Positions 40,752-56,374 of a DNA stretch of 64,000 bases are shown one piece after another. The translations under genes were made by a program, and so were the position numbers. The stretch comes from Xylogone sp. PMI_703 (taxonomy: Eukaryota; Ascomycota; Leotiomycetes). Every line of letters starts with the position of its first letter. Position 1 is the stretch's first letter. The DNA lies in contig JAJTUQ010000006.1 of NCBI GenBank assembly GCA_021399445.1, positions 2,418,001 to 2,482,000 of the forward strand, written 5' to 3'. Under the pieces are notes generated by a model. It made no database searches. It saw only the letters and a list, made by a program, of their open reading frames with translations, and was not told the DNA's origin.

Positions 40752-41418
40752 GGTGGTGAAGTCGGCCTTCCCTGACGAGCCTGGGTGAAGGTGCGAGCAC
40801 TGAGGGGCTGGCGGGGTACAATTTTATTATGGCTATTGGAGCTTCACTTGTAGCAGAGACTTCTGTACAGAACAATACAAGTAACAGAAGAGGTCTTGAA
40901 AATAAGTAAAAGAAGCAAAGAGAGAAAAGAAAGGCAGATAGAAGGGTAGAAGATCAAAGTAAAAATGTCACGCTCCAAAAAAAAGCTGGTGATGGTCAGG
41001 CACAAGGCCAAGGGGTTCGCAGCTTGCTTTCCAGAGCTGGTTGTGCCCCGCCAAATCCCCCCCCCATTGGGCTGGAGGGCGGGATTGGCGAGTAGTGATT
41101 GGAGCGCATGGCAACAGCAGCTGGTTACTCTGTTCAGACGAGAAACCCCCCGAGATCCGCGCGAGGCAAGAGTCGCCGGATATCGACGCGGAAGCAGCTG
41201 AAGTAGTAGAAAGTGGACAAGGCTTTACTATCTTTGGAAGATAGAAATATCAAATGCGTCCTGAACAGGGAATTATTAAAAAAGCTGTCTCTATAGTATT
41301 GTACTGTACAGAGTACTTTGTAAGAATATTTGCGCTGGGTACAAAGTTTTTGAGGGGGAAGGAGGGGTAAAGCACCCTTATGACTCCAAATAAGCCGCAG
41401 TGGAATCAAACATGCCAA
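40752..41418. other. Intergenic, galactokinase promoter and tRNA upstream flank
   Basis: About 670 bases. Short plus-strand frames 40965-41244 have no features. CCAAA immediately before position 41419 could serve as a Pol III start (CAA). Confidence 0.35.
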
Positions 41419-41425
41419 ACTCCAG

Positions 41426-41492
41426 TGACGCGTAAGTTTCACCCCTTGCAGATTCGTCACTGCCTATGAATGAAAATCAGAGGCTAATCGTT
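41426..41492 (+). other. Insert between acceptor strand and D-arm of the tRNA
   Basis: 67 nt that separate ACTCCAG from TGGCAGAG; TG is present at both edges, so the exact border is ambiguous by 2 nt. It lacks GT-AG borders at the positions needed. It forms a perfect 8-bp inverted repeat using the last exon bases: CAGTGACG (41423-41430) with CGTCACTG (41454-41461), then GCCT/AGGC. Whether it is an intron or a simple disruption is unknown. Confidence 0.35.
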
Positions 41493-41522
41493 TGGCAGAG
41501 TGGTTAGCGTGTCGTTCTTATA

Positions 41523-41569
41523 TTGATTCGGGGCAACCTGATTAATATGAATTCTTTCATCTTCGAGAG
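41523..41569 (+). other. Canonical anticodon-loop intron of tRNA-Ile(UAU)
   Basis: 47 nt inserted after position 37, where all standard eukaryotic nuclear tRNA introns sit. tRNA-Ile(UAU) carries an intron at this site in yeast too. Intron bases AATATG can pair with the TATATT around the anticodon, as expected for the endonuclease substrate. Confidence 0.6.
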
Positions 41570-41584
41570 ATGCGAAAGTCGTGG

Positions 41585-41638
41585 GTACGTTTATACACTT
41601 ACTCTACAATACTTGACACGTACTAACAATCCACTCAG
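41585..41638 (+). other. Spliceosomal-type intron inside a tRNA T-arm
   Basis: 54 nt with donor GTACGT, branch TACTAAC (41621-41627), and acceptor CAG 12 nt after the branch A: a textbook fungal mRNA intron. Exact removal joins GTGG to GTTCGACACCCAC and restores a perfect T-arm. Its last G supplies the first G of the B box, so the internal Pol III promoter survives in the DNA. Confidence 0.6.
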
Positions 41639-41671
41639 GTTCGACACCCACCTGGAGTATAATCCAACCAA

Positions 41672-41679
41672 TTTTTTTT
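41672..41679 (+). terminator. Pol III terminator (T8)
   Basis: Eight T residues 13 bases after the discriminator base, the normal place and form of a Pol III stop. Confidence 0.7.
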
Positions 41680-42141
41680 GCCTTTTCTTTTCTTTTCTTT
41701 AATAGTGAGTCAGGTAAATATCGACAGCAACAATCATTGGGAGTTCAAACAGATTGGTGTTTATTTATTTTTCCTACATGTTTGTCTATATCTGGGACAA
41801 TAGCTATGCCTGTAGAGTTTGGATGAATTGCTCTGCGCCCTAGTCTGGATACTTGATCTCCAGACTTTCATAGGCTCGCTTTCCTTTCCTCTATGTGCTA
41901 GAAATTATAATACTAGTCCGAAACTACGCTCAAGGCTTTCAAAACTCCTCGATGCGCTGGCACATGACTGTTGCGAGGAGCATTGCGATCACTTGGCAGG
42001 TGTCGAGTCCAATCATCAACCGGAGAGATGTGCAAGTCACATTTTGCGGTCTTCCATTGTACGCCTGGATAAGCTTGGAATAATTCGAGTTGTTTTCCGC
42101 TTGGGTGTTGTGCCATGATCCGTAAAGGTTGAACAATATTC
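41680..42141. other. No gene recognised
   Basis: Start of the decayed region beyond the tRNA. Overlapping short frames on both strands, none convincing. Confidence 0.3.
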
Positions 42142-54565: not shown

Positions 54566-56374
54566 TCATCTAAACCTCTCATAAGCCATCTCTTCTTCCA
54601 TCCTCGCCTTGACGAGCTCCACTATCTCCTGACTATAGAACTCCTCAGGCTGCTTGTTGCCCCTCAAGATCTCCCTCTCATGCACAACTGCTTCCTCCTT
54701 AGTCAGGCAGATCAACTCACTCCACTTCAGTTTGCTATGCTTTTGTCCCGGTACACTTCTATCAATCGAGCTGCCCTCTGGCTTTCGCCATCGTATTAAT
54801 GCTAATCTCGTTGAAACTCCACTTAATACACTTCGTCCTCGATAAACCTCCTCCACAAGATATCCCACATCATTGACACTTAACGGCACTTTCAGTCCCT
54901 GTGCATCTTCATTCTCTGTAGTTTGTCGTGCTAACTTCTCTTCCCATCCCTGAAGCTGAGCTAGGATTCCATCGTACATCTTCTCTCTTCCCTTAGCAGG
55001 GATATAGTCAGATGGGTAGCCAGTGATTTTAACGATAACATGATTCGCAACAGCATACCCAAACACAGCCGGCATGGTCCCCAACACTGGTAAAATCCTC
55101 ACACGGAAATCAGGCAGGACGCCCAAATCACCAACGGAACCCTTTGCAAACTCTTCCTCGGGAAGTGGCATTAGTTCTGCTTTTCCGGGTCCTGGCTTTT
55201 CCGTGGAGTACACAACGGGTATGCCAGATGCCACCCCCAGCGCACGTAGCCGTCGTCTTGTGGAGCGAGAAAGTGGATCTTCTGCGCTGGCAGATATGTC
55301 TCCAACAAAAATCCTTGTAGGGTCAGATTTACAGCCAGCACCCATTGACGATATGACAGGCAATTTGTTCTTGTAGCAATACTCCAGTAGCGCAACCTTG
55401 CTGTCAATGTTATCGATAGCATCGACGATGAAGTCTGGCTTCCGACCCTCCCAAGGCGCCAATAAAGCATCTGCGGCATCTATCCGGAATAGCTCGTTTC
55501 GTAGATCAAAACGCACCCAAGGCGTGATCTGTTGTAGTCGCCTTTTCAGGCATTGTACCTTCGGTGTACCGACATCCGCGAGTGTAGCAACCGCATGGCG
55601 GTTTAGAGAAGACAGAGTAACTTGATCGAAGTCTATGAGTCGAATGTATGATACTCCTGAGCGTGTAAGGGCAGCTGTGCAATGTGATCCCACTCCACCA
55701 CAGCCAACTACTATCACAAAGGCGTTTCGTAGTTTCCGTAACCCTTCATCCTTTAAGAATACTCGGTTTCGTGCCAATTGTTCCAGTATAAGCTCTGCAG
55801 TAGGAGATGATACTTAGAATTTTGGAAAATAAAATAACAAAACACTAGCTAGAAATACCATCATCATAATCGCCCTGTTGAGCCCTGGCTGCAAGAACGG
55901 CACTTCTTTCATCTTCCTTCGTCCATCCGAGAGGCGGTGAGGCAATGCCAAATTCCGTGAGCTTTGATTTATGCCGTCAGCACATTTGATCTAAGAGAAG
56001 AATTTTCTTTTCACAATTATATTCCTTGCAGAAGGAACACCACTCACCATCTCAGAACGGTGCCCACGCCCTAACTCTGGAATAGATCTTTTTAAATCTT
56101 CGATTTTTTCTTGACGTCTGATATGTTGGTAGCCTAATATAGCACCCGCAACCACAGCACTGGATATTATTGCCGTAGCAGCAATCTGCACCTCAGATGA
56201 GGTCGCTGAGCGTGAAAGCCAGGACATTATGCTCTCTTGTCGTTGCGTAGTAGGTGGAGTAGATGGTAGAGAGTATGGAGGGGTTAGAGAGCGTGGATTC
56301 GGGAAGTCCTGCCCGAATTCCTGGTTGTAGAAATTTCTGTATCGTGAATATGGTCTGTTAGGACGCCTGTCCAT
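54566..56374 (-). CDS. tRNA threonylcarbamoyladenosine dehydratase (Tcd-type, E1-like), 552 aa
   Basis: Cyclises t6A37 to ct6A in tRNAs reading ANN codons, via ATP-dependent adenylation; yeast Tcd1/Tcd2 are anchored at mitochondria. Exons 56048-56374, 55859-55961, 54566-55794 join into 553 codons. Introns are GTGAGT and GTATTT types. Exon 1 carries a single hydrophobic helix VQIAATAIISSAVVAGAILG, the expected membrane anchor. Exon 3 has the ThiF-like fold: LARNRVFLKDEG, VVGCGGVGSHCTAAL (ATP loop), IRLIDFDQVTLSSLNRHAVA, FIVDAIDNIDSKVALLEYC, SSMGAGCKSDPT, and GIPVVYSTEKPGP. Spliced exon 2 adds LTEFGIASPPLGWTKED. Length fits the fungal homologues. Confidence 0.9.

Follow-up and report, generated by a model that had tools for sequence, protein, structure and literature searches.

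Organisation of the tRNA-Ile(UAU) gene

The 64,000-nucleotide stretch of Xylogone sp. PMI_703 DNA analysed here (the window) contains a tRNA-Ile(UAU) gene on its forward strand, at positions 41419-41658, which is interrupted by two introns of the mRNA type and by one classical tRNA intron (Table 1). The 5' acceptor strand ACTCCAG (41419-41425) is the perfect complement of CTGGAGT at the 3' end of the gene (41652-41658) and is followed by TG and then by ACGC, which pairs with the GCGT of the D-arm. Intron 1 separates this ACGC from the D-loop AGTGGTTA, while intron 2 lies within the T-arm. Splice and branch signals were found to be kept in both of these introns, with the branch A of GCTAAT located 11 nt from the 3' end in intron 1 and the ACTAAC of intron 2, part of a TACTAAC at 41621-41627, located at 12 nt. 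Exact excision of intron 2 gives the T-arm GTGGG-TTCGACA-CCCAC, and after removal of both GT-AG introns the seven acceptor, four D-stem and five T-stem pairs are all intact. The anticodon stem carries one U31-U39 mismatch.

A first-pass annotation, made from the sequence alone, had described the 54-nt insert in the T-arm with its GTACGT start, its TACTAAC and its CAG end, together with the T stem restored by its removal, and both of these observations were borne out by the sequence. Its layout of the gene held for the T-arm insert and failed at the 5' end, which lies further upstream than was implied there, so that the intron in the D-arm had been missed. The claim that a spliceosomal-type intron and a classical tRNA intron occur together in one tRNA gene is supported by the sequence and has grown stronger, since this gene has a second such intron and 22 further tRNA genes of the genome together have 24.

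Table 1. Coordinates of the tRNA-Ile(UAU) gene and its signals in the window, and of other loci referred to in the text
Feature	Position	Strand	Description
AATAAG, candidate upstream promoter element	41389..41394	+	-30 from mature 5' end
Exon 1	41419..41431	+	Positions 1-13: acceptor 5' strand, positions 8-9, D-stem 5' strand; pairs with 41652-41658 and D-arm GCGT
mRNA-type intron 1	41432..41498	+	67 nt, position 13/14, D-arm; GTAAGT, GCTAAT, GGCAG
A-box match TGGCAGAGTGG	41493..41503	+	No other A-box match in the gene; spans the intron 1 end, gene position 75
Exon 2a	41499..41522	+	Positions 14-37, anticodon TAT
Classical tRNA intron	41523..41569	+	47 nt at 37/38; ARAGORN i(38,47) on spliced gene
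Exon 2b	41570..41584	+	Positions 38-52
mRNA-type intron 2	41585..41638	+	54 nt, position 52/53, T-arm; GTACGT, ACTAAC, CTCAG
B box GGTTCGACACC	41638..41648	+	First G is the last base of the T-arm intron
Exon 3	41639..41658	+	Positions 53-72
T-run, candidate Pol III terminator	41672..41679	+	T-runs lie just 3' of genes
ThiF-family protein (PF00899)	54566..55777	-	About 13 kb from the tRNA gene
U6 gene L095	G000:C20:2705914-2706024		1 intron
U6 gene L096	G000:C21:3523655-3523760		3 introns
Pro-AGG gene L071	G000:C20:4000570-4000950		2 mRNA-type introns and a classical 19-nt tRNA intron
Arg-UCU relic L103	G000:C21:5038132-5038153		Degraded, without intron
Arg-UCU relic L104	G000:C12:89405-89426		Degraded, without intron

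ARAGORN recognised the spliced gene as a full-length tRNA-Ile(tat) with a 47-nt intron in the anticodon loop. The same program called nothing in the unspliced gene and nothing in the whole window, and the Rfam models also left the interrupted gene unrecognised. In a folding calculation on the unmodified mature sequence the cloverleaf (-22.2 kcal/mol) was not the minimum-energy structure, the best fold being at -25.0 kcal/mol.

The chance of finding such a 5' half was estimated with 60,000 random 399-nt sequences that have the local dinucleotide frequencies; the estimate covers the paired 5' half and the GTRNG that follows it, and takes no account of the branch site, of the 3' splice site or of intron 2. 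A strict pattern, which asks for all seven acceptor and all four D-stem pairs (G-U allowed), T8 and then GTRNG, occurred in 2 of the 60,000 sequences, and its single site on both strands of the window is the gene itself. A lenient pattern (six of seven and three of four pairs, no T8) occurred in 831 of the 60,000 and at five sites in the window.

A galactokinase gene nearby on the minus strand contains a 49-nt mRNA intron (GTACGT...GCTAAT...GTAG) that was read by eye between the GVNSGG and MDQ motifs and that shows the same signals as the tRNA introns. The ThiF-family protein listed in Table 1 may be a TcdA/Tcd1-type tRNA t6A dehydratase.

Candidate transcription signals

In the window gene the A box is interrupted where it would normally stand, and the sole sequence that matches an A box extends across the end of intron 1. 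The B box is kept because its first letter is supplied by the last G of the T-arm intron. The first-pass annotation had pointed to this G as a reason why transcription need not be lost, and that remark is correct for the B box while it passed over the interrupted A box. Intron ends that supply box letters were observed to recur in the genome; introns that follow G18, as an example, begin with G and thereby preserve the GG of the A box (L080 and L109). An A box that is uninterrupted at the usual place was found in 19 of the 23 intron-bearing tRNA genes described below, the exceptions being the window gene, L071, L079 and L106. The B box is intact in all 23, largely by construction because the loci were obtained through B-box patterns or a tRNA model.

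An AATAAG element is present upstream of the window gene. The looser motif ATAAG was found between -45 and -18 in 17 of 63 tRNA loci that lack mRNA-type introns, where two background windows gave 1.0 on average (the k-mer was chosen post hoc), and in 6 of 22 intron-bearing genes. In yeast U6, an upstream element plus displaced boxes drive transcription by Pol III. An upstream element together with displaced boxes would most likely drive Pol III at the window gene in a somewhat similar way.

mRNA-type introns in other tRNA and U6 genes

At least 26 mRNA-type introns were found in at least 23 tRNA genes and at least four in two U6 genes, which gives the 30 introns listed. A further 63 distinct tRNA loci (69 rows of ARAGORN calls) were examined and have no intron of this type. 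The ratio of 23 to 63 is a biased one, the loci having been taken from selected matches only (40 stretches plus 8, with L111 and L113 left out of the reading). At least 310 and at least 110 candidate tRNA matches lay behind the selection of loci, and the tRNA and intron counts are lower bounds. The gene classes covered by the intron count are tRNA and U6.

Besides the window gene with its two introns, the tRNA genes concerned are those for Arg-UCU (L053 and L054, one intron each), Pro-AGG (L055, L056 and L071, with two in L071), Pro-UGG (L070), Ile-AAU (L065 and L091), Leu-CAA (L067 and L072), Leu-UAA (L083), Leu-AAG (L060, L108 and L109, with two in L109), Thr-AGU and Thr-CGU (both at L075), Thr-UGU (L076), eMet (L079), Phe (L080) and Arg-ACG (L107, L058 and L106). 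The two U6 genes (L095 and L096) have identical listed exons. That mRNA-type introns occur in fungal U6, as stated in the first-pass annotation, is known from the literature (PMC5832005, in the part available), and both U6 genes found here carry them.

Insertion sites in the tRNA genes fall in the stem and the loop of both the D-arm and the anticodon arm, as well as at 25/26 and 26/27, in the variable arm and in the T stem. All 30 introns are between 49 and 67 nt long. GT-AG ends are present in 28 of them, including both window introns, with Arg-ACG L058 (TG) and L106 (CG) as the exceptions. A relaxed branch motif was found in 29 of the 30, and in 27 introns its distance to the 3' end is 9-15 nt; the script that searched for it found none in L053. 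In L055 and L072 the script picked a weaker motif nearer the end although ACTAAC is present further up in both.

The triple layout of the window gene is repeated in the Pro-AGG gene L071, where one of the two mRNA-type introns is located at 32/33 in the anticodon loop. Four Arg-ACG copies (L058, L106, L107 and L110) share an intron at 31/32 which ends in AG only in L107, and no 5' half was seen for L110. On the sequence, the missing 3' AG could reflect either decay or a non-AG acceptor. Two degraded Arg-UCU relics without an intron were also found (L103 and L104), compared with two intact-looking copies which bear one. None of the loci read was recognised as a tRNA-Asp gene, and an anticodon-arm pattern for this tRNA gave six genome matches, none of them a tRNA; Asp genes may be interrupted in ways that escape such searches.

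Sequence evidence for the proposed removal of the inserts

The spliced Thr-AGU gene L075 is identical to the intronless Thr-AGU gene L001 at 71 of 71 nt, and non-identical paralogues of the Ile-AAU, eMet, Phe, Pro-UGG and Leu-AAG (D-loop) genes were observed to be continuous through the splice point. In four pairs of intron-bearing genes the exons are identical and the introns have diverged. The exons of the two Arg-UCU genes are identical (71/71), and their introns, in an alignment of length 65, agree at 39 of 47 aligned columns; the same was observed for Pro-AGG L055/L056 (exons 72/72, same-site introns 39/56), Leu-AAG L060/L108 (98/98 and 37/46) and the U6 pair (82/82 and 40/50). Six other pairs also show differences between their exons: Ile-AAU (72/84), Leu-CAA (90/111), Thr-AGU/UGU (68/71), Thr-CGU/UGU (70/71), Leu-AAG L060/L109 (94/97) and Arg-ACG L107/L058 (69/71). 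Some of the exon strings compared contain a 37/38 intron. The anticodon stem of Arg-ACG covaries across the intron, with CCTGA/TCAGG in L107 and CTTGA/TCAAG in L058.

When spliced, all 23 genes were called as tRNA by ARAGORN and 19 of them with the expected anticodon. When unspliced, 14 of 23 were called as something, with the expected anticodon in five and another anticodon in nine, and nothing was called in the remaining nine. This comparison has to be read with its control, since after a shift of one boundary by 3-8 nt the expected anticodon was still given in 232 of 552 cases. If the boundaries are chosen by cloverleaf fit alone, with about 200-256 end classes to choose from, GT-AG takes or shares first place in 11 of the 17 listed single-intron genes that this run covered, and in the remaining six it ranks 6, 6, 6, 23, 35 and 143, partly through sliding in loops. 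Because positions in loops slide in the cloverleaf fit, the exact boundaries rest on the paralogues and on the splice signals. When the window was searched for a 5' site, branch motif and 3' site, 49 matches were obtained against a shuffle mean of 52.9, which is no excess, so that the reference for mRNA introns consists of the one galactokinase example read by eye and the published consensus (PMC5832005, in its available part).

Copy number and decoding of AUA

The first-pass annotation had raised the case that this might be the only tRNA-Ile(UAU) gene and had proposed a search of the whole genome. The assembly searched comprises 50.1 Mb in 25 contigs, with the window on a contig of 3.95 Mb. 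The MTHFR protein encoded in the window has 75-76% identity to proteins named for Rutstroemia, Sclerotinia trifoliorum and Cadophora, on which basis we place the host within Helotiales or close to it. A D/anticodon pattern with up to two mismatches gave three matches genome-wide, namely the window gene, an unrelated site and an eMet gene. The uninterrupted T-arm-acceptor stretch of the window gene was found nowhere in the genome at up to three mismatches, in a search run without a positive control, and the 321-bp region of the gene has no other DNA match in the genome at E<=1. A spliced 72-nt query gave no candidate in the genome, a search which is uninformative for a gene in short pieces and which had no positive control. 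As far as tested on the sequence, no second tRNA-Ile(UAU) gene was found in the assembly, and the suggestion of a sole gene stands to that extent; a very divergent copy could escape these searches.

AUA forms 66 of the 275 isoleucine codons in eight open reading frames of the window. The dependence of AUA decoding on this gene, which had been proposed on the condition that the gene is single, does not follow in the same way: a tRNA-Ile with inosine-34 might also read AUA, so that the gene may or may not be essential. In the genome-wide pattern search, Ile-UAU and Arg-UCU were represented only by intron-bearing genes or degraded relics, and the same was observed for the examined copies of Pro-AGG, Leu-AAG, Leu-CAA and Arg-ACG.

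Interpretation and alternative explanations

We consider it very probable that the window contains a nuclear tRNA-Ile(UAU) gene with two spliceosomal (U2-type, GT-AG) introns and a classical 37/38 intron, and that it is one of at least 23 such tRNA genes. This reading is built on what can be seen in the sequence, which is the anatomy of the gene, its splice signals, the restored tRNA, a search that found no second copy in the assembly, and, for other tRNA genes, intronless paralogues and exon conservation. We infer from it how the tRNA would be produced and used. Pol III would transcribe the gene from the AATAAG-type upstream element and the internal boxes and would stop at the T-run. The spliceosome would then take out both GT-AG introns, and this step probably comes before the others because the acceptor, D and T helices are far apart, with abnormal loop lengths, until these introns are gone. 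RNase P, tRNase Z, CCA addition and the tRNA endonuclease and ligase would complete the tRNA.

Splicing by the spliceosome is normally tied to Pol II, and this, together with the A box broken at its normal place in the window gene, might suggest that Pol II rather than Pol III transcribes the gene. We regard this as unlikely. T-runs are located just downstream of the genes, AATAAG stands at a distance that other tRNA genes show as well, 19 of the 23 intron-bearing genes have an uninterrupted A box where it is normally located, and U6 and U3 are spliced short structured RNA genes which have introns of this kind (PMC5832005, available part). The broken A box, the U31-U39 mismatch and the lack of an intact paralogue or relative in which selection on the window gene could be seen are also what would be expected if the gene were decaying, its inserts no longer removed and AUA read by a tRNA-Ile(AAU) with inosine-34; the Arg-UCU relics and the 5'-truncated Arg-ACG copy show that tRNA genes do decay in this genome. 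Against this, every acceptor, D-stem and T-stem pair and the splice and branch signals of both introns have been kept, AUA is used in the window in the proportion given above, and the same anatomy is present in other genes that are under evident constraint. Decay of the window gene is therefore quite improbable in our view.

The inserts might also be ectopic introns on which the tRNA endonuclease acts. Introns of that kind are known from Cyanidioschyzon merolae, where the tRNA-Ile(UAU) is interrupted at almost the same three positions (PMC9602550, in the portion available). GT-AG ends and a branch motif are unexpected for endonuclease introns, and the U6 genes contain introns of the same kind as the tRNA genes. 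In addition, the 4-bp central helix of the bulge-helix-bulge, under our own definition and in a test without a positive control, was complete in only one of the 30 introns (L072) and reached two of four pairs in each window intron. We consider removal by the endonuclease to be highly improbable.

Other intron classes were also compared. No Rfam model of group I or II self-splicing introns matched in the window at gathering scores; the region 41300-41800 gave one unrelated snoRNA-like match at E 4.4. When the listed tRNA and U6 introns were compared in pairs, the 99.9% shuffle score was exceeded in none of 379 pairs that combine two families and in 5 of 56 pairs from the same family, and direct repeats at the boundaries have a mean of 1.2 and a maximum of 5 nt. 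The tRNA and U6 introns compared show no sign of a mobile introner because cross-family similarity above shuffle level is lacking and the boundary repeats are short.

Implications

We lean, with some reservation, towards the view that the spliceosome would be an essential enzyme of tRNA maturation in this fungus and that decoding by some isoacceptors would depend on the splicing of Pol III transcripts. As part of this view, the internal promoters would mostly survive because the introns are inserted next to the A box or have ends that put back letters of a box. If it is true, the spliceosome's own RNA would be tied to the tRNA supply, as both U6 copies found carry such introns. A genome in which tRNA genes contain more than two dozen introns of the spliceosomal type would be evidence that the spliceosome can serve tRNA precursors broadly, that genes which lack reading frames can gain and retain introns, and that tRNA folding, the trimming of the ends and splicing can take place in a changed order. 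The Thr-AGU genes with and without an intron, which have an identical mature sequence, form a natural control pair. Furthermore, tRNA finders can miss or mislabel genes of this type, as was observed for unspliced genes in the ARAGORN calls described above.

Comparison with known systems

Nuclear tRNA introns are taught as substrates of a protein endonuclease and spliceosomal introns as belonging to mRNA, with U6, U3 and rDNA as the exceptions. The classical 37/38 intron is present in the window gene and in many tRNA genes of the genome, and differs from the mRNA-type introns described here in its position and in having neither splice-site nor branch signals.

The tRNA-Ile(UAU) of the red alga C. 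merolae has introns at 12/13, 37/38 and 53/54 (PMC9602550, available part). The accessible sections of PMC4090602 treat non-canonical introns in the tRNAs of algae and nucleomorphs as substrates of the endonuclease, and short D- or T-arm insertions elsewhere as probable pseudogenes. The C. merolae and nucleomorph introns resemble the present ones in that several can occur in one tRNA gene, in the D-, anticodon and T-arms (PMC9602550 and PMC4090602, both in part). Those introns are ascribed to the tRNA endonuclease, whereas the introns found here have GT-AG ends and a branch motif and lack the tested helix in 29 of 30 cases.

Spliceosomal introns are also found in the rDNA of ascomycetes and lichens, where a 57-bp lichen intron was spliced in yeast (PMC8527467, as far as available). 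They are likewise spliceosomal and located in a gene that is not an mRNA gene, but the transcript there is a Pol I rRNA and here a tRNA (PMC8527467, same part). There is also a likeness to the introns of fungal U6 snRNA and U3 snoRNA, which share the GT-AG ends, the branch site, the short structured RNA genes and the occurrence of paralogues with and without the intron (PMC5832005, available part). According to the same portion of that paper, frequent interruption by an intron was known at that time from no small structured RNAs other than U3 and U6 (Canzler et al. 2017, PMC5832005).

The first-pass annotation knew of no description of a tRNA that needs the spliceosome besides the endonuclease, and this agrees with our search, in which no report of spliceosomal introns in tRNA genes was found in titles and abstracts of the open literature, a scope outside which most subscription papers and all bioRxiv preprints fall. 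Compared with U6 and U3, the introns described here occur in at least 23 tRNA genes and at many positions, sometimes beside a classical tRNA intron. What appears to be new, judging from the sequence, is therefore the presence of spliceosomal introns outside mRNA in a class of genes for which we found no precedent, and in many genes of a single genome.
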